Part shown: positions 92 through 37,980 of the stretch, in pieces
Layout of the letters: the number at the start of each line of letters is the position of its first letter
How positions within the stretch are numbered: position 1 is the stretch's first letter
DNA from: Deltaproteobacteria bacterium
GTDB lineage: Bacteria > Acidobacteriota > Holophagae > Holophagales > Holophagaceae
NCBI GenBank assembly: GCA_020048105.1
Contig: JAIFMW010000081.1
Location: forward strand, 1 to 39,306
Direction: 5' to 3'
DNA: 39,306 nt
The notes under the pieces: model-generated
The model's input: the letters and a program-made list of their open reading frames with translations, nothing else
What the model was told of the DNA's origin: nothing
Database searches by the model: none
Translations under genes and position numbers: made by a program

Positions 92-1858
92 ACCCTCGAC
101 CTGCCCTTGAAACCACTCCCCACACGACCCGGCACGGAGCTCCACCTGCGGGTGGGATTCACGCTGAAAGAGGCTACGGCCTGGGCGAAGGCGGGCTATG
201 AGATTGCCCGGGAACAACTAACTCTTGTGGCTTCGATGCGCCCGGCTCTAAGGGTGGAAGGCTCGCCACGCCTTACAGGGCACACGGTCCAGGCCGGCCC
301 CGTCACTGCCACCTTTGGCACCGTCAACGGCGGCCTCGCCAGCCTAAGCATCGGCGGGCGAAGCGTCTTCGCGATGGGCCAGGGGCCGGTCCTGGATCTC
401 TTTCGATGCCCTGTAAACAACGATATCTGGGTGGCTTCCCGCTGGTTCGACCAGGGGCTCCACGACCTCGCCCACCGCGTGACGGATTTGAAGGTGCGTC
501 AGGAAGGCGCCGTGGTGCGTGCCGTAGCAGAGGTGGAGAGCCGTGGGACGCGCGCCGCCCTGGGTGATCTAGGCCGCGCGGAAGGCTGGGTTCTCACACC
601 GAAGGAAGGCGCGCCAGACTTGGCCTTTCAGTCCACGTGGACCTGGACCGTCTTCGGCGAGGGCACCATCGCCTGCCAAGTGCAACTGCGTTCGGAGGGC
701 CCTGCACTGCCCCTGCCCAAAGTGGGCGTTGCCATGACGCTGCCCGCGACCTTCGACCGCTTCGAGACCTTCGCCCGGGGCCCCTTCGAGAACTACCCAG
801 ACCGCAAGAGCGGCGCCTTCCTGGGCCGCTGGTCGGGCATGGTGAAGGAGCAGTTGGTGCCCTACGCCAAGCCCCAGGACATGGCCAACCGTGAGGACGC
901 TCGCTGGATCGCCTTGCGGGGAAGCGAAGGACCGGGCCTACTGTTGGTCCCCGAACAGCCCATGGCCGCCACGGTGGCGCCCTGGACGCCCCTGCAGTTT
1001 TTTGCAGCCAAACACCCCCACGAACTGCCGCCGGCGGGAGATACACGGGTGAGCCTTGCGGCCGCGACCCTGGGATTGGGAGGCGCCAGTTGCGGCCCCG
1101 CTCCCATGGAGCGCGACATCCCTCGCACCAACCGCCCCTGGAGCCTTGCCTTCACGCTGCGCCCCTTGATGGAGGGCGAGGACGCCGCCGCAAAGGCCCG
1201 AATGGCCCCGCCCGTGGTGGCTCCCGTGGAGGTCCGCCGCGAAGGCGGACGTCTGCATTTCGCCTGCGCCACGCCCGGCGCCCGGATCGAGGCACGGATC
1301 GGAAAGAACGTCTGGCAGCCAGTCCATGGCAAATGGGTAGCCCCAAAGGGTGCCTTTGTTATAGGCGTTCGGGCCTCGGCCGAGGGCCTGCTTGCCCAGC
1401 CGCCGCGCAGCCAAGCCTTCTCAAAAGAAGCAGTGCGAGTGCCCCTAAGGGTGGTCTACGCCAGCTCTCAGGAATTCGGCGAAGGTGATGCGACAAACCT
1501 GGTGGACGGCAACCCCGACACGATCTGGCACACGGCCTACGGCGTTACCGTCACCAAGCACCCCCACAGCGTGGACTTCGACATGGGAACCTCCCGCGCC
1601 GTGGAAGGCTTTGCCCTGCTGCCGCGCCAAGAGGGCGACAACGGCCGCGTGAAGGGCTATGCATTCTCGGTGAGCCTCGAGGGCAAAGCCTGGGCCGAAG
1701 TGGCTCGAGGCGTCTTCCCCGACAGCGCCGATCGCCAGGTGGTGCGCCTGCCCAAACCAGTGAAGGCCCGCTTCCTCCGCTTCACCGCCCTCAGTGAACA
1801 GCGCCGGCAGGACTATGCCAGCGCCGCGGAGTTTGAGGTGCTCACCGGGAAACGTTAA
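92..1858 (+). pseudogene. C-terminal fragment of a GH2 beta-galactosidase with an F5/8-type C domain
   Basis: The open frame encodes only the end of a LacZ-type glycoside hydrolase family 2 enzyme. The first residues (around PGTELHLRVGF) match the end of the fourth beta-sandwich domain. Residues about 60-345 (counting from the TTG at 107) match the beta-galactosidase small-chain domain, with the typical GPFENYPDRKSG stretch near residue 225 and a PQDMANREDARW stretch near 255. Residues about 445-583 look like a discoidin (F5/8 type C) carbohydrate-binding domain. The sugar-binding, Ig-like and TIM-barrel domains with both catalytic glutamates are absent, so hydrolysis is not expected. The frame stays open leftwards to about 83, and homology stops at the hairpin at 61-90. 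A TTG at 107 could start a product, but no good ribosome binding site precedes it. A split small-subunit gene is a less likely alternative because the fragment starts inside a domain. Confidence 0.75.
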
Positions 1859-1937
1859 TTTCTTTTTTGCGCTTAACGGAACGCCTTTCGCCGTGACTGC
1901 AGACCCCTGGCATCATGGGCATGACACGAGGAGCCCC

Positions 1938-3647
1938 ATGCGCAGCCAAGTCATGTTTTTTCTTGCAGCCACTCTGGTGGCTCAGCCGCCTCTGGAAACG
2001 CGAATCAAGGAAGATCTAGCATTTCTGGCCGGGGCCGACCGCCAAGGGCGTGGCAATGGTTCCCAGGGCCTGGATCAAGCGGCGGCCTTCTTGACCAAGG
2101 GCTACGAGTCCATGGGGCTTAAACCCCAGAACCAGCGCTATGCCTTTGTGGATCGAATTACTCGAATCAAGGCCAAGGCCTCCTTGGGCCAAGGCGCTCC
2201 CTTGGTCTGGGGCCAAGACCTTGACGCCATCGGGTTCAGCGCCGATGGTGCCTTTTCGGGCAAGCCAATGCTCTTTCTCGGGTACGGCCTAAAAACCATG
2301 GGCTACGACGATCTCGAAGGCCAGGACATGCACGGCAAGGTCGCCCTAATCCTGCGCACGGTGCCCGACGCCAAGGCCTTTGCCATGGTGGGCAGATCCG
2401 ACCGGGGCGTCTTGGCGCGCACCATTCGCCTCCAAAAGGCCGGAGCTCTGGCGGTGATCGTTCTGGAGAATGAGGATCGACCCCGACCCCTGGCCCGGGA
2501 AGAAGGCCCCCTAAAACTCGATATCCCGGTGATTAGCCTGCCGATTCAAACATTAAAAGGTACCTGCGGAGATCTCGCAGCGATTGCTCGGCAAAGTGCG
2601 GACACGGGCAAGCCGGCCAGCCAGGAATACCCCACCACCTTCAGCCTGGAACTCAGCCTGGACCGCCATCAGGCCATGCTCCCCAATGTCGCCACGGTCA
2701 TCCCTGGTTCGGACCCCAAGCTAAAAGACGAGTTCATCGTACTGGGGGCGCATCTGGATCACCTGGGCCTCGGCGAACGGCATAGCCTTTCGGGAGAAGC
2801 TGGGCGTGGGCAGGTGCATCCCGGCGCCGATGATAATGCCAGCGGCACCGTCATGGTCTTTGAACTGGCCAAACAGCTAAAAAACCGCCCCACCCGTCGA
2901 TCGGTTGTGCTTTTGCATGTTTCGGGCGAAGAAGAGGGCCTGTTGGGCAGCGCCCACTGGGTGCAGAACCCCACCATCCCGCTGCCCAGCGTCAAGTTCA
3001 TGCTCAACTTCGATATGGTTGGCCGCCTGGATTCCGCCAAGCCCACCCTGCAAATCGGTGGCCTCGGTGCTCCCAAAACCGCCTTGGCCAAGGCCAAGAC
3101 CTTCGCGCCCGAAGGGCTGGCCATCGGCGACGATCTCGGCGTGGCCGTGGGTGGCTCCGATCACATGAGCTTTTCCGCGGCCAAGATTCCGACCTTCTTT
3201 TTTTTCACCGGCGTCCACGGGGACTATCACCGCCCCTCGGATACCGTCGACAAAATCAACGTGCAGGGCATGGCCACTATCACCACCATGGCGGAAAAAA
3301 TCGTTCGCGATCTAGCCGATGCGGACCAGGTGCCAGCCTTCGATCCCGAAACGGCCAAGCTCCCAACGGTGCGGGGCGGCCCGGTACGGGTGGCCTTTGG
3401 CAGCATTCCGGATTTTACCGAAAACCCTAAGGGTTTCCGAATCAATGGAACCTCGCCCGGTTCCGCCGCGGAAGCCATTGGGCTGAAGGCCGGGGATGTG
3501 ATGACCACCTTCGGTGGCAAACGCATCCGTAATCTCTACGATTTCCAGGAAGTGCTTTCCTCCTTCAAGCCCGGGGACAAAGTTCGCGTAGTGTGGCTGC
3601 GAGGCGAAACCACCATGGAACAAGACGCCATCCTCAAAGGCCGGTGA
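1938..3647 (+). CDS. secreted M28 family zinc aminopeptidase with C-terminal PDZ domain
   Basis: Predicted exported metallopeptidase of 569 residues. The ATG at 1938 is preceded by GAGGAG and opens a signal peptide (MRSQVMFFLAATLVAQP); the frame runs further upstream, but that part overlaps the preceding gene fragment. The M28 metal-binding set is visible: AHLDHLG (His near 272), GADDNASG (Asp near 298), SGEEEGLLGS (Glu near 331-333), NFDMVG (Asp near 359) and DYHRPSDT (His near 431). Between the signal peptide and the catalytic part lies a PA-like insert. Residues about 490-568 form a PDZ domain, which usually binds peptide ends. An eight-T run encodes a FFFF stretch that is usual at this point of the family, so it is not a frameshift. 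It is followed after 7 bases by aroB. The substrate is unknown; members of this family release N-terminal residues from peptides in the periplasm. Confidence 0.9.
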   Translation: MRSQVMFFLAATLVAQPPLETRIKEDLAFLAGADRQGRGNGSQGLDQAAAFLTKGYESMGLKPQNQRYAFVDRITRIKAKASLGQGAPLVWGQDLDAIGFSADGAFSGKPMLFLGYGLKTMGYDDLEGQDMHGKVALILRTVPDAKAFAMVGRSDRGVLARTIRLQKAGALAVIVLENEDRPRPLAREEGPLKLDIPVISLPIQTLKGTCGDLAAIARQSADTGKPASQEYPTTFSLELSLDRHQAMLPNVATVIPGSDPKLKDEFIVLGAHLDHLGLGERHSLSGEAGRGQVHPGADDNASGTVMVFELAKQLKNRPTRRSVVLLHVSGEEEGLLGSAHWVQNPTIPLPSVKFMLNFDMVGRLDSAKPTLQIGGLGAPKTALAKAKTFAPEGLAIGDDLGVAVGGSDHMSFSAAKIPTFFFFTGVHGDYHRPSDTVDKINVQGMATITTMAEKIVRDLADADQVPAFDPETAKLPTVRGGPVRVAFGSIPDFTENPKGFRINGTSPGSAAEAIGLKAGDVMTTFGGKRIRNLYDFQEVLSSFKPGDKVRVVWLRGETTMEQDAILKGR

Positions 3648-3654
3648 ACCCAGC

Positions 3655-4689
3655 ATGCTGCTTAACCTTCCCGAGTCCTTTCCGACCGCGGTGCACATCC
3701 TAGAAAAACTGGAAGGTGGCTGTTTGCCCGAAGGCCCCTGGGTGCTGGTGGGCGACGAAGCCATCCGCCCACTCTGGGAGCGTGCCGGGATGCCCGTGCC
3801 CCTTGGTTCCCGTTGGGTGAATTTGAATGAAACCACGAAGCGTCTGGACACCCTGATCCCGTGGTTGGAGGCCTGGGCTGCGCTGCCCCTCCACCGGGAT
3901 GTCTGCATCGTGGCGGTGGGCGGCGGCGTTCTCACGGATATGGTTGGCCTCGCGGCGGCCCTCTTTCTGCGGGGTGTTACCTGGCAGGCTTGGCCCACCA
4001 CACTGCTTTCTCAAGTGGATGCGGGCCTCGGTGGAAAAACCGCCGTAAACCTGACGGCAGGAAAGAATCTCGCCGGTGCATTTCATCCTCCGGAACGCAT
4101 GGTGGTGTGCTCGGCCTTTCTGGATACGCTGCCTGTGCGGCAACTGCAATCGGGCCGATGGGAACTGATCAAGATGGCCTTTCTGGAAGGCGATACGGCT
4201 TGGGCCGAACGCCTGATGGCAGCACCCAAACCGGACTCCAGCGATCTGGCCAGGGCTTTGGAAATTAAGGCCGAACTTGTTCACCACGATCTGCGGGAAG
4301 CCGGGGACCGCAAACTCCTGAATCTGGGCCACACCCTGGGACACGCCCTGGAAGCCGCCTCGGGTTTCCGCCTGCTCCACGGCGAGGCCGTTGGCTTGGG
4401 TCTCCTCGCCGCGTGTTTTCTGGCCGAGGAGGCAGGCCTTCCCCCATTCCCGCCGGAACTCCTGCAGCGACTGGCTAATCACTTGCGGCACCTGGCCCCG
4501 GAGATCGCCCCCTGGGAAGCCTGCCTGCCGTGGTTGGCCCGGGACAAAAAGATCGATACAGGCGCGAATGGAACCGCCCCGGCAGTACACTGTGTTCTGC
4601 CTCAGCCTGGGAATCGTGCCACGTTGAGGTTCCTACCTCCCGAAGCCTGGAGCACTGCCCACGCCAAGCTACTGAACTCTTTTTCCTGA
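3655..4689 (+). CDS. aroB: 3-dehydroquinate synthase
   Basis: Second enzyme of the shikimate pathway: converts 3-deoxy-D-arabino-heptulosonate 7-phosphate to 3-dehydroquinate, using NAD and a divalent metal, in the cytoplasm. The 344 residues match the family length. The nucleotide-binding GGGVLTDMVG stretch, the LRGVTWQAWPTTLLSQVDAG block with following GGKTAVN, and GKNLAGAFHPP are clear. The metal ligands are expected in WELIK (Glu) and in the NLGHTLGHALE and LLHGEAVGLG histidine motifs. The WELIK stretch follows SGR instead of the common G-x-A, a mild variation. It lies 7 bases after the peptidase gene and 9 bases before the TPR gene, so it is probably co-transcribed with both. The ribosome binding site at the ATG is weak. 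Confidence 0.95.
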   Translation: MLLNLPESFPTAVHILEKLEGGCLPEGPWVLVGDEAIRPLWERAGMPVPLGSRWVNLNETTKRLDTLIPWLEAWAALPLHRDVCIVAVGGGVLTDMVGLAAALFLRGVTWQAWPTTLLSQVDAGLGGKTAVNLTAGKNLAGAFHPPERMVVCSAFLDTLPVRQLQSGRWELIKMAFLEGDTAWAERLMAAPKPDSSDLARALEIKAELVHHDLREAGDRKLLNLGHTLGHALEAASGFRLLHGEAVGLGLLAACFLAEEAGLPPFPPELLQRLANHLRHLAPEIAPWEACLPWLARDKKIDTGANGTAPAVHCVLPQPGNRATLRFLPPEAWSTAHAKLLNSFS

Positions 4690-4698
4690 GACACCTCC

Positions 4699-6609
4699 GT
4701 GCACCCATTGAAATACCTGGTCGTTCCCGTTCTTGTTGGCAGCAGTGGTTTCAGCCTTTCAGCCCAGAGCACCGAGGACCCCCGCTCCCTGATCTTGCAA
4801 GGTCGGGCCATGCAGCGGCGCGGAGGCGGTGATAATCCCGCCGGGGCCGCCTTGCTATTCCGGAAGGCCGTGGCACTCTCGCCGAAAAGCGCAGAGGCCA
4901 ATCTGCGCCTTTCCGAGGCCCTGATGGAATCCGGTTCCCTGGAAGCCGCCGTGGAACCTGGCACCCGAGCCACGGATCTGGATCCTTCCCGCGCGGAGTC
5001 CTGGGCTCACCTGGGCATGTTGCATTACCTACGGGGGAGAAAGCTGCCCGAAGCCCAGGCACAGGCCCAAAAGGCTCTCCAACGGGCGGCCACGTTAATG
5101 CCATCGGATGCGGAATTGTGGACTCGCCTCGCCGAAGTCGCCGAGACCTGCAAAGACCAGCCTGCTGCCATCAAGGCCTGGACCCGGGTGGGCCGACTGC
5201 GTCCGCCCTTCTCCATTCAGGGCCGAAACCTGGGTGATATCGCCTGGGAACGGGTGGCCACCCTTGCGGCGGGCCCCAATTACTATGAGCTCCGCCGGGA
5301 AGCCGTGCTGGCCCTCTGCAACGGAAAATATCCAGATGCACCGAGCCTGCGACTCTTGGAGGAGCTGGCCCGAGAGCAGGTGGAAAAGGGGTTTCTGGGA
5401 CACGCCGAAGAAAGCTTTGCCCTGCTGGGTCGAAGCCTTCCCAAGGAGCCTGCGGTTTGGGACAACATCGCCCTCATCCAAATTCGCACGGCCCGATTTC
5501 AAGAAGCCATCGAGACTCTGCGTCGGGCCGAAGCGATTCGATCTACACCTCGAGGGGATTTCAACACGGGCCTTTGCCTAATGAATCTGGGCCAGTTTGA
5601 AGAATCGGAGCCCCGTTGGCGCTCGGTCCTGAAGGCCTCCAAATTCACCAAAGAAGACGAAAAACTCGCGGCCAATGCCCGCTCGCTCCTGGCCACTTCG
5701 ATGCTCCTGCGGGGCAAGCCCAAGGAAATGCTCGAATTACTGAAGGGCTGGCCCGAAGGTAAAACTCAGCCCGATTTGTTGGCCCTTGAGGCCCAGGGGC
5801 TCATTCAAACCCAAGCCTTGAAACAAGCCCGGCTCGTCCTCCGGGATGGCATGGCACGCTTTCCGCTGCATGGCATTTTTCTGCTGGCAAAGGCGATTCC
5901 CGAAAAGCAGTTCAACGGCGGCGTCTTTTCCGGCAAACAATCCCGGAATGCCTTGCAACAATTGGATCTCGAGACAATTGCTGGCCAAATGGGTGAGTTC
6001 CGCCGCTGGGATCGGTGCCTGGAATTCGTACTTCTGGCCCGAAAAACGGCCCCGGTGCGTGATATCGAACTGCTGCTGCTCCAAGGCAGTGCCCTCCAGG
6101 AATTGGGGCGCATGAGCGAAGCCGTTCAGGTACTTCGCGAGGGGCAACGCATGAATCCGGGTCATCCGACCCTACAAAACAATTTGGGCTATGTGTTGCT
6201 GGAGATGGATGAAAGCCAATTGCCGGAGGCCGCCGCCCTCATCGAGGCTTCCATCAAACAAGAGCCCGATAACGGCAACACCATGGATAGCTGGGGTTGG
6301 GCGCTATTCAAACAAGGGAAATTCAAGGAATCGGAAGAAGTCCTCCGCAAGGCCTCGGAGCTTTCGCCCTTCAGCCCCGAGATTCGCAAGCACCTGGGGG
6401 AAACCCTGCTTTCCCTTGGCCGCCTGGAGGAGGCCCTGGAGCAGTGGGAACGGGCGTTGGCCTATGCCTTTCCTGATCGCAAAGCCCTGGAGGTCCGGGC
6501 CCGGGAATTGCGCACTCGCATCGCCAAAAAGCGTCACGAGGCTGCCCTGGCGGATCCAGACGAACCCATCGAGCCCCCAGAACCCGATTTCGATGAGGAT
6601 CCGGAATGA
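4699..6609 (+). CDS. exported tetratricopeptide-repeat protein
   Basis: A 636-residue protein with an N-terminal signal peptide (about residues 1-23, ending near LSAQS) followed by many TPR-type helical pairs. Examples are the segments around ANLRLSEALMESGSLEAAVE, VWDNIALIQIRTARFQEAIE and TLQNNLGYVLLEMDE. TPRs are protein-binding scaffolds; no catalytic domain is visible. The C-terminus is acidic (PDEPIEPPEPDFDEDPE). The start is a GTG 9 bases after the aroB stop with only a weak ribosome binding site, which suggests coupling to aroB. Its own stop overlaps the next gene's ATG (ATGA at 6606-6609). It probably acts in the periplasm or at the outer membrane, perhaps with the small protein encoded next; that role is inference. 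Confidence 0.8.
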   Translation: MHPLKYLVVPVLVGSSGFSLSAQSTEDPRSLILQGRAMQRRGGGDNPAGAALLFRKAVALSPKSAEANLRLSEALMESGSLEAAVEPGTRATDLDPSRAESWAHLGMLHYLRGRKLPEAQAQAQKALQRAATLMPSDAELWTRLAEVAETCKDQPAAIKAWTRVGRLRPPFSIQGRNLGDIAWERVATLAAGPNYYELRREAVLALCNGKYPDAPSLRLLEELAREQVEKGFLGHAEESFALLGRSLPKEPAVWDNIALIQIRTARFQEAIETLRRAEAIRSTPRGDFNTGLCLMNLGQFEESEPRWRSVLKASKFTKEDEKLAANARSLLATSMLLRGKPKEMLELLKGWPEGKTQPDLLALEAQGLIQTQALKQARLVLRDGMARFPLHGIFLLAKAIPEKQFNGGVFSGKQSRNALQQLDLETIAGQMGEFRRWDRCLEFVLLARKTAPVRDIELLLLQGSALQELGRMSEAVQVLREGQRMNPGHPTLQNNLGYVLLEMDESQLPEAAALIEASIKQEPDNGNTMDSWGWALFKQGKFKESEEVLRKASELSPFSPEIRKHLGETLLSLGRLEEALEQWERALAYAFPDRKALEVRARELRTRIAKKRHEAALADPDEPIEPPEPDFDEDPE

Positions 6610-7070
6610 TTTTTCTGTTGGCACTTTCTCAGGCCATTCAGGCCGAACCCGCAAAGGTTCTTCCTCCCCTGCGGGCCCAGTACGGTTGGGGCTATGCAGG
6701 CGACGATGGCGAAGGTAAGGGCGACTTCAGCATCTTGCTGGAACCCGCCACGGGGAAACTGATTCTCGAAGTGCATGGAGTCGGGGAGCGCATTGTCTTT
6801 TTGTCAGGCGACCGTGCCACAGGTTACCGGGTACAGATTCCCCGGCGAAAAATCGATGAAGCCTCGCCCACTCTGGGCGGTTTACCGGTGCCATTCCTGC
6901 CCCAGGTGGGCTCCGTGGAAGGCCTCTACCAGCTCCTCACCCTGGGCGAGGCCAAGGGCGTCAAGGTGACCAAGAAGGATGCCAAGGGCCCCGTAAAGCT
7001 TCGATATGCGGGTACGGATGAGCAAGGCCACGAAGTCATGGTTTGGTTGAATCGCACGCGGTGGGAATAG
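6606..7070 (+). CDS. small exported protein of unknown function
   Basis: A 154-residue protein not recognised as any family. A short signal peptide (about MIFLLALSQAIQA) precedes a mature part that looks beta-rich, with alternating hydrophobic strands. It resembles in general style the LolA or outer-membrane-lipoprotein-sorting type fold (ILLEPATGKLILEVHG, KLRYAGTDEQGHEVMVWLN), but key motifs were not identified. It has no cysteine at the cleavage site, so it is not a lipoprotein. Its ATG overlaps the stop of the TPR gene by four bases, so translation is coupled and the two products may work together. It ends exactly where the convergent nadC ends. Confidence 0.7.
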   Translation: MIFLLALSQAIQAEPAKVLPPLRAQYGWGYAGDDGEGKGDFSILLEPATGKLILEVHGVGERIVFLSGDRATGYRVQIPRRKIDEASPTLGGLPVPFLPQVGSVEGLYQLLTLGEAKGVKVTKKDAKGPVKLRYAGTDEQGHEVMVWLNRTRWE

Positions 7071-7919
7071 TTAATCCATTCGCAGGCTGAGATCCGCCGA
7101 TGGGGCGCTATGGGTCAGCGCGCCAACGCTAAGAAAATCCACGCCCGTTTCCGCCACGGACCGAGCCCGGGTCAGATCGAGGTTGCCGCTCGCCTCCAAA
7201 AACACACGGCGGCCGGAGCCTTGACGCAGCTGCACGGCTTCGCGCAGCGCCTCGAGGGTCATGTTATCCAGCAAGATGCCGTCCACCTCCGGCAAGGCTA
7301 GGCATTCTGCGACCTGGGCCAGGGTCTCGGCCTCCACCTCAATCTTGAGGAGGTTCGGCGACACGCGCCGCGCGGCTTCGACCGCGGCAGCGATGCCACC
7401 GGCCGCGGCGATATGGTTTTCCTTGAGCAACACGCCATCCCCCAAGGTCAGCCGATGGTTGAAGCCACCTCCGCACCGCACCGCCCATTTTTCCAATAGT
7501 TTGAGTCCAGGTGTGGTCTTACGGGTATCCAGGATTCGCGCCCCGGTGCCTTCGATACCATCCACGAAGGCGCGGGTCAGGGTGGCCGTGCCGGAAAGCC
7601 GCTGCAGCAGGTTTAACATCACCCGTTCAGCCATGAGAATTCCGTGGCTCGAACCCTGGATGCGCATGACTTCGGTGCCCCGCACCAACCGATCGCCATC
7701 GGCCACCAAGAAATTCACCGCGACGGCAGGATCCACCGCCCGGAAGACTTGTTCGGCCACGGTGAGCCCAGCGATTACCAAGTCTTGCTTCGCCACCACC
7801 CGGGCAGCCATGGGGCGATCCGGCACCGAGGCCGTGGTCCAATCCTGAGTGCCCCAATCCTCGCGCAGGAAGGCTTGGACCGAATCGATGTAGGAAAGCG
7901 GGTGGGGCGGGTTAAACAT
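7071..7919 (-). CDS. nadC: nicotinate-nucleotide pyrophosphorylase (carboxylating)
   Basis: Quinolinate phosphoribosyltransferase of de novo NAD synthesis: quinolinate plus PRPP gives nicotinate mononucleotide, pyrophosphate and CO2. Hallmarks are EDWGTQDWTTASV near the N-terminus, the LNLLQRLSGTATLT helix, ILDTRKTTPGLKLLEKWAV with following RCGGGFNHR, the LKENHI stretch and the LEASGNLDL block near the C-terminus. The start chosen is the ATG at 7919, six codons inside the longest frame (TTG at 7937), because GGAG lies five bases upstream of it. This gives 282 residues, normal for the family. No nadA or nadB is nearby. It converges on the small exported protein gene with no gap. Confidence 0.95.
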   Translation of the reverse strand: MFNPPHPLSYIDSVQAFLREDWGTQDWTTASVPDRPMAARVVAKQDLVIAGLTVAEQVFRAVDPAVAVNFLVADGDRLVRGTEVMRIQGSSHGILMAERVMLNLLQRLSGTATLTRAFVDGIEGTGARILDTRKTTPGLKLLEKWAVRCGGGFNHRLTLGDGVLLKENHIAAAGGIAAAVEAARRVSPNLLKIEVEAETLAQVAECLALPEVDGILLDNMTLEALREAVQLRQGSGRRVFLEASGNLDLTRARSVAETGVDFLSVGALTHSAPSADLSLRMD

Positions 7920-27141: not shown

Positions 27142-28761
27142 TTAACTCGTCTTAAAGCGGGCAAGCGAAGCGCTGAGTTCTTCGGCAATGTTGGCGAGGT
27201 AGTCTGCCGTGTGATTGACCTCCTCCACCGTGGCGGAGAGTTCGGTGGATGCAGCAGCGCTTTGTTCGCTGGACTTGGCGGTGTGCTCCACTTGCATGGC
27301 CACCTCGTTAGCCGTACGTTCTTGCTCCTCTGTGGCCGATCCGATCTCTCTGGACGCACTCACGACCACCGCAATGTTCTCCTGGATTGTGCGAATGGTC
27401 GTATCCGTTGCCTGGACCGTGCGGACACCTTCCTGCATTGCGGCTTCGGTTTGACTGATGAGTTCGCCGATTTCCTTGGCGGCCATGGCGCTGCGTTCGG
27501 CCAATTTACGAACCTCTTCGGCGACCACAGCAAATCCCTTGCCGTGAACCCCGGCCTTTGCAGCCTCGATCGCAGCGTTCAGCGAAAGGAGGTTGGTCTG
27601 ACGAGCGATGTCCTGGATGACCTGAACCGCTTTCACCATTTGCTGGGTGGTTTCGCGGATGGCCTGCATGGCCGATACCGTGGCCGTGCCCTGCTTGGCG
27701 CCTTCATCTGCGGCCCGCTGCATGGTCTCCGTGCGAACGTTGCTGCTGCGAACGTTCTGGGCGACCTCTTGAATCGATGCGGCGAATTGGGTCATGGCGG
27801 TGGCCGTCCGCTCGGCAGCCATCCGCTGCCCCTCAGCGGATTGGGCGATCTCTGCGGTGGCCCTGGCGACCTCGCCTGCGGTGGCATTAAGCTCCGTGGA
27901 GCCTGAGGCCACGCGGCTACTGGCATCTCGAAGTTGGCCGAACAGTTCCTGGAACCGGCCTAGCATGGCATTGAAGTCCCTGGCCATCCGCCCCAGTTCA
28001 TCTGCGGAATGGACTTCGACTCCGCAGCTAAAATCGCCCGCAACCATGCGCTCCATGGCCTCACTTACTTCCTTCAGGGAATTATTGATGCGGCGCACTA
28101 CCGCGCGGGCAATCAGAAGCGCGAAGGCCAAGCCCACCCCAAGGAGAACAGCCTTGAAAATGCCTCCAAAGCGGAACAGGGCCGCCATTTTGGCATTTTC
28201 TCGCGCTTCGATGCGCTCGGCCTCCTTGAAGGTCGTTTCAGCGAGAGCGCCAATGGCCTCGTTCATGGGCCGATCAATGCCCTTGAGCTGAGCATCCACC
28301 GTCCGATAGGCCAAGGGATCCTTGTCCTTCCAAGTGGCAAGAGCCTCCCGGTATTTCGCCCCAAGGGCCTGATGTTCCCGACTGGTCCGGTCGACGAGCT
28401 CCGTCGAAACCTCCAACTCCTTCAAGGCCACCTTCAACTTGGCTAAATGGCCCCCAACGGCCTTTTCGCTGTCATCAAAACCCGCTTTAAACTTGGCCAT
28501 TTGGGCTGGATCATGACCGCGGAGCAGAATGTTCTTCCACTCCTGCACCTGGACCTTGAAGGCATTCTGGGCTTCCCTCGCCGTGTCCCCGGACCGCGCA
28601 ACCCTCTGCATGGTGTTCACGAGTTCACGGGATTGATCCGTAATGCGTGATTCCAGCCAGTAGCCCCCAACCCAGAGAAGCGTAGCCACCAACATGAGGC
28701 TTCCGGTCAGCAACCAGAGTTTCGCCCGGACGGAAATTCGATCAAGAAAGGAAAGGGCCAT
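27142..28761 (-). CDS. transmembrane methyl-accepting chemotaxis protein
   Basis: A 539-residue chemoreceptor. An N-terminal membrane helix (about residues 15-37) is followed by a four-helix-bundle type sensor to about residue 200, a second membrane helix ([19 protein letters not shown]), a HAMP domain, and a cytoplasmic signalling domain. The tip is [20 protein letters not shown] with following [17 protein letters not shown]. It ends in LARFKTS without the NWETF-type tether for CheR. It relays ligand binding to CheA/CheW. The ATG at 28761 is chosen because GGAG lies six bases upstream; a TTG four codons earlier is not supported. A sigma-28-like promoter lies 29 bases before the start codon. 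The ligand is unknown. Confidence 0.94.
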
Positions 28762-28789
28762 GAGGATCTCCAACGCCCAAAAAAGCTTT

Positions 28790-30348: not shown

Positions 30349-31947
30349 ATGAACCCAGCCAACATCATCGCCAACCTTCCCATTGGCCGAAAATTCCTTG
30401 TGCTCCTGCTGCTCCAGGCTCTATTCCTTTGCCTTGTGGGCTTTTTTGGGTGGTACGGCATCGAGAGTTCCCAAGCAGGCACGCATAGTGTCGGCGGGGA
30501 TTTAGCTAAAACCCAAGCGGTCTCAAAAATACTCAACGATACGAATACCCTGCGCTCGGTTCATATTTCCATGATCGCGGCGGCCAAGAACGACGCCTAC
30601 ATTGCTAAACGGCGGGAACGTTTGACGACCTATGAGGAACGGGTGAAGGAGGCTTTTTCGAAGATCGGAACCCTTGCCTGGACCCTCGAAGAAAAACCAT
30701 TGGTGGAAAAAGGCTCCGCTGCATTCAAGGCCTATGTCGTCGGCTTTGCCTCCGCCTTCGAACAAGCCAAGGCGCTGAAAGGCATGGAGGCTTCCGGGGA
30801 GCTCATGGAGGCCAATGTGGGCCTTGCCCGGGAGGGGCGTGAAGCCTTCGAAAAACTACTCGACACTCTACAAAAAGCTACTGTCACCAACATTGAGCGT
30901 GACCTCGTTACGGGAAATCAGAAACAGAATTGGATCATCGGCGCTGCCCTCACCGCAGTGCTGCTAGGCGCCCTTCTCACGCGCATGATTTCCAAGCAAA
31001 TTTCAGGTTCCGTGCGGGCCATCGAAGTCACCATGAGCGCCGTTAACCATGGTGATTTGACCGTTGCATGCAAACTCGATACCCGTGATGAATTGGGCCA
31101 TATTGCCGCCAGTCTTCAGCAGATGGTGCAGAAATTGGCCGAAGACATCCAGGCCATGGCCCTCATTTCAGAACGCACAGCCTCCGGCGCCACGGAGCTT
31201 TCCGCCACCACCGATCAGCTTATGTCAGCCACTTCCGATATCAGCAGCGGCGCCGAGCAGCAGCGACTCGCCGTGGAGCAATCCACCGGCTCGCTCAATA
31301 TGCTCTCCTCGGCCATCGCAGAAATCCATCAGGGCTCATCTCGGGCCGCCCAGCTCGCCGACAAGTCGCTGAAGACCAGCGCCGAGGGTACGAAGAACGT
31401 TCATGCCAGCACCCAGGCCATGGCAGCCATTCAAGACAGTTCTGAAAAGGTCGGCCGGATCACAGGAGTCATTTCGGATATTGCCCGCCAGACCAACCTG
31501 TTATCCCTGAACGCCGCCATCGAAGCCGCCAAGGCGGGCGCTCAAGGCAAGGGTTTTGCCGTGGTTGCCGAAGAAATCCGAAAACTCGCCGAGCGCAGCG
31601 GCGCCGCCGCCAAGGAAATTGCCACGCTCATCGAGGAAAGCGGCCAGCGCGTCCTAACCGGCAATAAAGCGGTTGGCACCGTCAGCGACAGCCTTGCTTC
31701 CATCGAAACGGATATCCGAGCCCAAGCCGAGATTGCCGGACGCTCCACCGCCGCCTTGCAAGAACAGGCCAAAGTCAGCGAAGAAGTGGTGGATGCCATG
31801 GGCACCACCCTGCACTTCACCGAACGGAATGCCTCGGCCACCACAGAACTGGCGGCCTCCTTATCGGAAACCACTCGAACCGTGAATGACCTTGCCGAAT
31901 TGGCCGTGCAGCTTCGCCAACTCATCACTCGGTTCAAGCTGAGCTGA
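30349..31947 (+). CDS. transmembrane methyl-accepting chemotaxis protein
   Basis: A 532-residue chemoreceptor. First membrane helix at about residues 14-36 ([22 protein letters not shown]), a sensor of helical-bundle type, second membrane helix [20 protein letters not shown] near 200, a HAMP domain ([20 protein letters not shown]), then the signalling domain with tip [20 protein letters not shown] and following [17 protein letters not shown]. No C-terminal CheR pentapeptide; the end LITRFKLS closely parallels that of the receptor at 27142-28761, suggesting related receptors with different sensors. The ribosome binding site GGGAG precedes the ATG. Transcription is probably from the sigma-28-like site at 30284. 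It is followed six bases later by the broken DUF4440-type gene. Confidence 0.94.
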
Positions 31948-37203: not shown

Positions 37204-37320
37204 CTTACCTCAGAGTGACTTCGAAACATCGCACAGCGCCCCTGTTTTGGCGCTTCCCACCCGAGGAAAGTCCGAAGAACCCTTTTCTGGATTACAATCG
37301 GCAAATTCAGGGAGTCCACG

Positions 37321-37980
37321 GTGAGCAATTGGGTCGGCACGCATGTCTTTAGCATTGGCATCATTGGTGGCGGGCGCGGAGGCCATGGCCTTCTTGCTTT
37401 TTTTGGGCGCAGCAAAGTCGCCCGAATCGCCTTCCTGGCTGACCCCGATCACGAAGCGATTGGCATCCTGGCCGCCCGGGAGGCTGGAATCCGCACCTAT
37501 ACAGACGCCGAGGAAGCCCTTCGCAGCGGATTACCCGATTTTATTTTCGATGCAACCGGCGACGAAGTATTGGACGCCAAGATTCGGCAAATTATCCGCA
37601 ATACCGATACCCGGCTAATCAGCCCGGTCACGAGTCGCATGATGGTGCGGGTGCTGGAGGAAAATAGCACGCGGGTTCGCGAAGATGTCTCCCAGGTGGT
37701 GGGCACCATCAAGCACGAACTCTCCGATAGCCTGGAAGGTAGCCGGAATCTTGTGAGCCGAATCAATTCCATCATGTCCAGCATGCAGATGCTGGCCCTC
37801 AATGCCAGCATCGAGGCCGCCAAGGCGGGCGTTCACGGCCGGGGCTTTGCGGTGGTGGCCGATCACATGGGCAAATCCGTGGAAGCCGTCCGTAAACTCA
37901 CCCAGGAAATCGATGGCGTGAACGCCAATATCATTCAGGTCTCCGAGCAGATCGATATGGTGCTGGAGAAGCTGAAGTAG
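37321..37980 (+). CDS. soluble fusion of a Rossmann nucleotide-binding domain with a minimal chemoreceptor signalling hairpin
   Basis: A 219-residue protein without membrane segments. Residues about 10-100 are a Rossmann fold: SIGIIGGGRGGHGLLAFF is a glycine-rich dinucleotide-binding loop and IAFLADPD ends the second strand with an acidic residue, typical for NAD. The rest reads EAGIRTYTDAEEAL and DFIFDATGDEVLD. A similar domain is known as an N-terminal input module of signalling proteins. Residues about 105-219 form two long helices around a chemoreceptor tip ([20 protein letters not shown] with following AVVAD, 157-181). The canonical EVRKLAERS after the tip is replaced by HMGKSVEAVRKL. 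GTG start at 37321 with GGAG seven bases upstream. It converges on the Xer-type gene. A cytoplasmic redox or NAD sensor coupled to CheA/CheW is an inference. Confidence 0.85.
   Translation: MSNWVGTHVFSIGIIGGGRGGHGLLAFFGRSKVARIAFLADPDHEAIGILAAREAGIRTYTDAEEALRSGLPDFIFDATGDEVLDAKIRQIIRNTDTRLISPVTSRMMVRVLEENSTRVREDVSQVVGTIKHELSDSLEGSRNLVSRINSIMSSMQMLALNASIEAAKAGVHGRGFAVVADHMGKSVEAVRKLTQEIDGVNANIIQVSEQIDMVLEKLK

Follow-up and report, generated by a model that had tools for sequence, protein, structure and literature searches.

A Small Protein Family Joins a Rossmann Domain to a Chemoreceptor-type Hairpin

The window analyzed here, a stretch of 39,306 nucleotides, carries on its forward strand (37321–37980) a gene for a 219-residue protein, in which a Rossmann domain is followed directly by a chemoreceptor-type hairpin and which we refer to as the mini-receptor. 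The gene rests on an ORF call, on family alignments and on the signature of purifying selection, with a GTG start codon at 37321 and a stop codon that ends at 37980. A Shine-Dalgarno-like AGGGAG (37309–37314, forward strand) can be read in the sequence 6 nt upstream of the GTG, the open frame 5′ of the GTG contains no further in-frame ATG, GTG or TTG, and the start site is about the same in most homologues of the family alignment. Two ordinary full-length chemoreceptors are also encoded in the window (27142–28773, reverse strand, and 30349–31947, forward strand), 5–10 kb from the mini-receptor.

A family profile search of 93 genomes of the class, 77 of them in the family of the window genome, probably Holophagaceae, returned 19 full-length copies (E ≤ 3.1e-83) in 15 of the 77 Holophagaceae genomes, the next matches being ordinary receptors from E 4.5e-18 onward. 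The copies are 218–226 residues long with almost coincident C-terminal ends, no longer version occurs among the Holophagaceae homologues, and in a tree of the hairpin all 19 form one clade (100/100), set off by a very long branch. Among database records, a Holophaga sp. MAG comes nearest, its protein being 97% identical; relative to it dN is 0.015 and dS 0.285 (dN/dS ∼0.05), with third codon positions holding 39 of the 45 base differences, and by this sequence measure purifying selection on the gene is strong. The 219-residue protein is thus a real and conserved small family. The gene is flanked by tex and xerC in genera g1 and g3 and adjoins tex in g2 and g9, and genome G015 has two tandem copies and a third copy elsewhere. 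In G003, only the last 36 codons (L033, 6179–6286, forward strand; 86% identical) are left between tex and xerC, the rest being deleted, and in G002 tex directly adjoins xerC and nothing of the gene is left at the site, indicating that it is dispensable in some relatives.

The preliminary description of this locus had named, as one outcome that would overturn its reading, homologues that expose the protein as a truncated full-length receptor; the length of 218–226 residues in every Holophagaceae homologue rules this out there. Truncation or pseudogenization was accordingly rejected, given this length, the purifying selection and the 19 intact copies, as was an assembly artifact, given the same architecture in independent genomes, including the single-contig genomes G008, G011, G017, G024 and G071.

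The N-terminal Domain Has an NAD-type Dinucleotide Signature

The Rossmann domain (residues 10–100; 37348–37620, forward strand) was assigned from the alternation of strands and helices in the predicted model and from profile and fold matches. Rossmann families of Pfam match residues 10–91 weakly, below their cut-off, and the acetaldehyde dehydrogenase family of NCBIfam matches residues 10–100 with an E-value of 1.9e-5 and a score far below the family cut-off. Structure comparison of the model gives NAD-dependent dehydrogenases and NAD-bound oxidoreductases as the nearest folds, and the NAD domain of acylating acetaldehyde dehydrogenase (PDB 4lrt, 1nvm, 7z3s), which is also the best Rossmann match among PDB sequence profiles, is the closest Rossmann domain by profile and fold together. 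In contrast to that enzyme, the mini-receptor has no catalytic domain, a long helix beginning directly at residue 102 of the model, and its Rossmann domain would serve as an input module. The missing catalytic domain makes a binding role likelier than an enzymatic one. A Rossmann enzyme with a coiled-coil tail was also considered and is disfavored by the lack of a catalytic domain and by the invariance of the receptor tip.

The glycine-rich NAD-type loop that the preliminary description had noticed corresponds to GGGRGG, a GxGxxG dinucleotide loop (residues 16–21; 37366–37383, forward strand) whose Gly-16, Gly-18 and Gly-21 are invariant in 17 of 17 rows of alignment A1. It is joined by Asp-41 (37441–37443, forward strand), placed at the end of strand 2 by alignment A3 and the model and invariant in all 18 rows of that alignment, distant relatives included; position 21 is alanine in both f28 relatives (described below). 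An acid at the end of strand 2 is assigned a ribose-binding role in NAD-type Rossmann enzymes in a passage of PMC4777477. Both features of an NAD-type domain, the GxGxxG loop and the strand-2 acid, are therefore found within a Rossmann fold, and the putative ligand is most likely a dinucleotide, NAD(H) foremost, or a related nucleotide, as judged from these residues.

The Hairpin Is Soluble and Short

The chemoreceptor-type helical hairpin (residues 102–218; 37624–37974, forward strand) is supported by Pfam, by the model and by matches to the Thermotoga maritima receptor TM14. MCPsignal (PF00015) matches residues 114–215 with an E-value of 7.2e-16, passing the cut-off, and the match spans positions 9–109 of the 172 in the profile, short of full-length cytoplasmic arms. 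No HAMP domain was found in the 219-residue protein by Pfam and no membrane span is present (best 19-residue Kyte-Doolittle mean of 1.13), so the protein has the receptor hairpin without membrane segment of a soluble chemoreceptor, as had been proposed. The C-terminal arm has ∼44 residues, and the N-terminal arm, at ∼65–69 residues from residue 102, is longer than the earlier estimate of 45–50 residues for each helix. The claim that methylation helices of normal length are missing holds: from the LNA motif to the C terminus there are 60 residues, compared with 145–201 in the eight other receptors of the same genome, the strict methylation consensus was found in none of 17 family members, and a relaxed pattern occurs in only two of the 17, the window protein not among them. 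To our knowledge, the 24-heptad class is the smallest recognized receptor length class. The arms of the mini-receptor are roughly half the length of this class, which is described in PMC4742279.

AlphaFold2 was run twice, with 17 and 54 aligned sequences, giving a mean pLDDT of 88 and 90. The pTM of 0.57–0.61 is low, which leaves the relative orientation of the Rossmann part and the hairpin uncertain. DSSP assigns residues 102–218 of both models to one continuous helix, with no break at the tip. Foldseek nevertheless superposes the model on the TM14 hairpin over 140–143 columns (22–24% identity, rmsd 4.3–5.4 Å), and the sequence match to the TM14 chain runs through the tip almost free of gaps. 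An in-register superposition on TM14 with such an rmsd would be impossible for a straight rod, and the predicted model is most likely a hairpin on the strength of the superposition and the in-register sequence match. As far as the models allow a judgement, the other outcome named as fatal to the earlier reading, a predicted structure without a hairpin, thus did not arise, despite the unbroken DSSP helix.

Soluble receptors are already well known, and the nearest to the mini-receptor are TM14, YfmS and TlpD. TM14 (PDB 3g67, 3g6b) is likewise a membrane-free hairpin, with which model and sequence align across the tip, and it too lacks canonical methylation sites (PMC12871147); it differs in consisting of 213 residues of hairpin with no input domain, whereas the mini-receptor has arms about half as long and an N-terminal Rossmann domain fused to them. 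YfmS of Bacillus subtilis, termed a soluble chemoreceptor in PMC7542364, is a small soluble receptor that has been modeled with CheW (PDB 9a72) and appears among the structural matches, but it is 286 residues long, and the ∼119 columns that align come from a comparison that left out its N-terminal domain. TlpD (PMC12871147) resembles the mini-receptor as a soluble, cytoplasmic receptor that has a small sensory domain and is devoid of canonical methylation sites; its sensory domain is a different one, a C-terminal CZB domain, and the receptor keeps the trimer residues E231/R233 (PMC12871147). Transmembrane chemoreceptors differ more plainly, since the mini-receptor has neither a transmembrane helix nor HAMP. 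We found no chemoreceptor with a Rossmann input in the open-access literature, to which the search was limited.

The Core of the Tip Is Invariant and the Segment after It Is Altered

Aligned with receptor tips, the hairpin tip comprises residues 157–181 (37789–37863, forward strand). The positions equivalent to 380, 381, 384, 385, 390, 393, 395, 396 and 398 of Tsr are identical in all 19 copies, the invariant equivalents including Leu-380, Asn-381, Glu-385, Gly-390, Gly-393, Gly-395, Phe-396 and Val-398. The conserved tip sequence of an MCP signaling domain, claimed earlier for the window copy, is therefore present both by Pfam and by these core residues throughout the family.

The flanks of this core depart from other receptors. 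The alignment places His-182, Met-183 and Gly-184 (37864–37872, forward strand) at the positions of Tsr Glu-402, Val-403 and Arg-404, and the change after the tip that the preliminary description had remarked on in the window copy proved to be family-wide (19/19) and no oddity of that copy. Position 402 is His, Gln or Asn in every copy, compared with Glu in 29 and Gln in 5 of 34 comparison receptors; position 404 is Gly, Thr, Ala, Ser or Asn (Arg or Lys in 31/34); position 406 is Ser or Val (Leu in 34/34); position 407 is Val or Ala (Ala in 31/34); and positions 375–376 are Met/Leu and Gln in 19/19 copies, where the comparison receptors have Thr (33/34) and Asn (32/34). Residues of the E402/R404 type are thus absent from the whole family, and the eight other receptors of the window genome all retain Glu at 402 and Arg or Lys at 404. 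The new post-tip motif is itself conserved, with Lys-185 (at Tsr position 405, Lys in all 19 copies), Val-190, Arg-191 and Thr-194 invariant. The shifted VRKLT had pointed to an extra heptad behind the tip, but such an insertion is unsupported, because the alignment to other receptors is free of gaps and the Lys at 405 is constant.

In E. coli, Glu-402 and Arg-404 form an inter-receptor salt bridge and contact Arg-40 and Asp-107 of CheW, and they stabilize the CheA-ON state (PMC6954272). The family-wide loss of the equivalents of Glu-402, Arg-404 and Leu-406 suggests that normal coupling may not occur. However, the two aligned CheWs of the window genome have Ser/Ile at Arg-40, Ser/Asp at Asp-107 and Gln at Glu-18, so the E402/R404 contacts may not define coupling here, and the salt-bridge argument from E. 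coli CheW carries over with less force.

The Gene Occurs in Genomes That Encode CheA

The window genome encodes two CheA proteins, nine CheW-domain matches and nine receptor matches, the mini-receptor included, and the mini-receptor gene lies away from its che genes. All 15 carrier genomes have CheA, and the gene occurs in none of the 28 CheA-less genomes among the 93; this co-occurrence is weaker than it looks because carriers are not independent of phylogeny. In genus g6 the mini-receptor is followed by a weakly matching HATPase-like protein and a sigma-54 response regulator (L030, 4682–7751, and L037, 7093–9861), and in a third g6 neighborhood (L027, 5895–9008) the sigma-54 response regulator lies 3′ of the mini-receptor with no HATPase-like gene detected. 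In these three and in L035, the mini-receptor is divergent from a bacteriohemerythrin gene. At L024 (5656–7498, reverse strand), STAS, a mini-receptor paralogue and a CheY-like protein stand in a row on one strand. Neighbors of these STAS, CheY, HATPase and sigma-54 types were noticed at none of the other copies, among annotated neighbors.

The Rossmann Module Has Relatives with Other Outputs

The preliminary description had suggested searching other genomes for the same domain order. The short hairpin is constant in all 19 Holophagaceae copies, and it had not been foreseen that the Rossmann–hairpin pairing would also occur outside Holophagaceae, in Acetoanaerobium and in two other Acidobacteriota. 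The latter, the f28 relatives, come from two genomes of another Acidobacteriota class (L062, 3621–4304, reverse strand; L063, 7134–7811, forward strand) and have 225–227 residues, the same domain order and a degenerate receptor tip, which in L062 reads TLNAKIESARAGDAGNAFAIVV; these proteins may show the hairpin working without standard array contact. In Acetoanaerobium noterae (Bacillota), a 260-residue Rossmann–MCP protein (L082, 4998–5780), unannotated in the record used, is likewise soluble and of the same domain order, but its hairpin is longer, its tip is the canonical GEHGRGF, Glu-402 is kept and Arg-404 is Gln. The f28 and Acetoanaerobium hairpins sit on long branches of the hairpin tree, and the pairing may have had one origin or several. 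A contig-wide search with a single-protein query, which under-samples the spread over other phyla, returned one relative. A viral link was rejected: matches on viral contigs were confined to the receptor tip, from query residue 91 onward, without the Rossmann part, and BFVD gave no match at E ≤ 0.001.

Related N-terminal Rossmann domains are carried by other signaling proteins of Acidobacteriota with different output domains, namely sigma-54 AAA+ activators (L066 in G161, 3003–4349, reverse strand; L149 in G140, 1468–2862, forward strand) and PAS-HisKA-HATPase kinases (L067 in G316, 1848–4361, and L068 in G196, 1855–4002, both on the reverse strand, the L068 gene being cut by the contig end). 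The kinases bear out the earlier statement that similar Rossmann modules occur on signaling kinases, and the relatives together point to an exchangeable signal-input module. L066 has a Fis-type HTH by Pfam, and neither it nor L149 has a receiver domain; from their sequences, both are candidates for nucleotide-sensing transcription activators without phosphorylation input.

Discussion

Our leading interpretation, which we hold at even strength, is that the mini-receptor acts in the cytoplasm as a sensor of the NAD(H) type and that its hairpin, as a dimer, enters the chemosensory array through a modified interface; here we infer, beyond what the data show, the ligand, the dimerization, the membership in the array and the direction of the output. 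NAD(H) is the most likely ligand of the Rossmann domain, which would bind this or another dinucleotide or a related nucleotide. Because this domain would be seated directly on the start of the first helix of the hairpin, ligand-dependent changes in its dimer would shift how the four-helix bundle packs, at a distance of only some six or seven heptads from the tip. The conserved receptor-receptor core would bring the tip together with CheA, CheW and full-length receptors, the side of the tip that faces CheW/CheA being modified, and the redox or metabolic state of the cell interior would bias kinase activity, with no adaptation by methylation at the customary sites. The MCPsignal match, the invariant core tip, the GxGxxG loop with Asp-41 and the CheA of all carriers are sequence features that would fit such a role, as would the CheA, CheW and receptors of the same genome, the related Rossmann domains on sigma-54 activators and PAS kinases, the STAS, CheY-like, HATPase-like and sigma-54 neighbors of some copies and, for the predicted model, the presence of TM14 and the YfmS-CheW model among the structural matches. 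Against it stand the lost equivalents of E402, R404 and L406, the patchy set of carriers (15/77), the losses in G003 and G002, the position of the window gene away from che genes and the degenerate f28 tip.

The same contrast between core and flank could instead mark a modulator or decoy, the tip entering receptor trimers by its core, failing in kinase coupling and so diluting or capping the units, with nucleotide binding setting how much of the protein joins. This alternative, which takes up the capping inhibitor of the preliminary description, is rather unlikely, although it would account for a core that is kept while positions 402, 404, 406 and 375–376 are altered in 19/19 copies, in a genome whose eight other receptors keep Glu and Arg/Lys and given the part that E402/R404 play in the CheA-ON state of E. 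coli (PMC6954272). The E. coli contact map, however, transfers incompletely, as the two CheWs of the window genome differ, and the tight conservation of Lys-185, Val-190, Arg-191 and Thr-194 points to a positive interaction more than to a simple loss. We also judge it unlikely that the hairpin works outside the array, as a dimeric coiled coil for another partner such as the g6 HATPase-like protein and sigma-54 regulator or the STAS/CheY-like proteins beside one paralogue. The gene order at L030, L037 and L024, the degenerate tip of the f28 homologues, the very long branch of the family hairpin and the non-chemotaxis outputs driven by related Rossmann domains would all agree with such an adaptor, but these neighborhoods are lineage-specific and tex is the neighbor of most other copies, CheA is present in every carrier, and the strong receptor-specific conservation of the tip would be difficult to account for if no receptor-like contact were made. 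That the gene is decaying, or is a remnant of a full-length receptor, is highly improbable: the losses in G003 and G002 would suit it, but 19 intact copies of near-constant length, a dN/dS of ∼0.05 and retained duplications oppose it, and for the window copy it is refuted.

If the sensor reading is right, the family would, tentatively, form a chemoreceptor class in which the NAD(H) pool is read directly by a Rossmann domain shared with other systems as an input module, with a hairpin far below the 24-heptad length and a re-engineered kinase-facing side. Signal transfer to the tip is usually studied in receptors with a wide distance between sensor and tip. In the mini-receptor, 44 to 69 residues of helix would place a compact ligand domain perhaps 7–10 nm away from the tip, and a soluble protein of 219 residues could make the sensor-to-kinase step directly testable. 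Were NAD(H) bound, the protein would act directly as a sensor for redox or energy taxis, next to the FAD-based Aer. Because the whole family has lost residues considered critical in E. coli, it also provides a natural experiment on the true requirements of the tip.

An unusual adaptor arrangement was also observed at L083 (G000:C234), where one protein with three CheW domains (5658–7181, forward strand) is encoded next to two others, a CheA that itself has a CheW domain and another CheW-domain protein.
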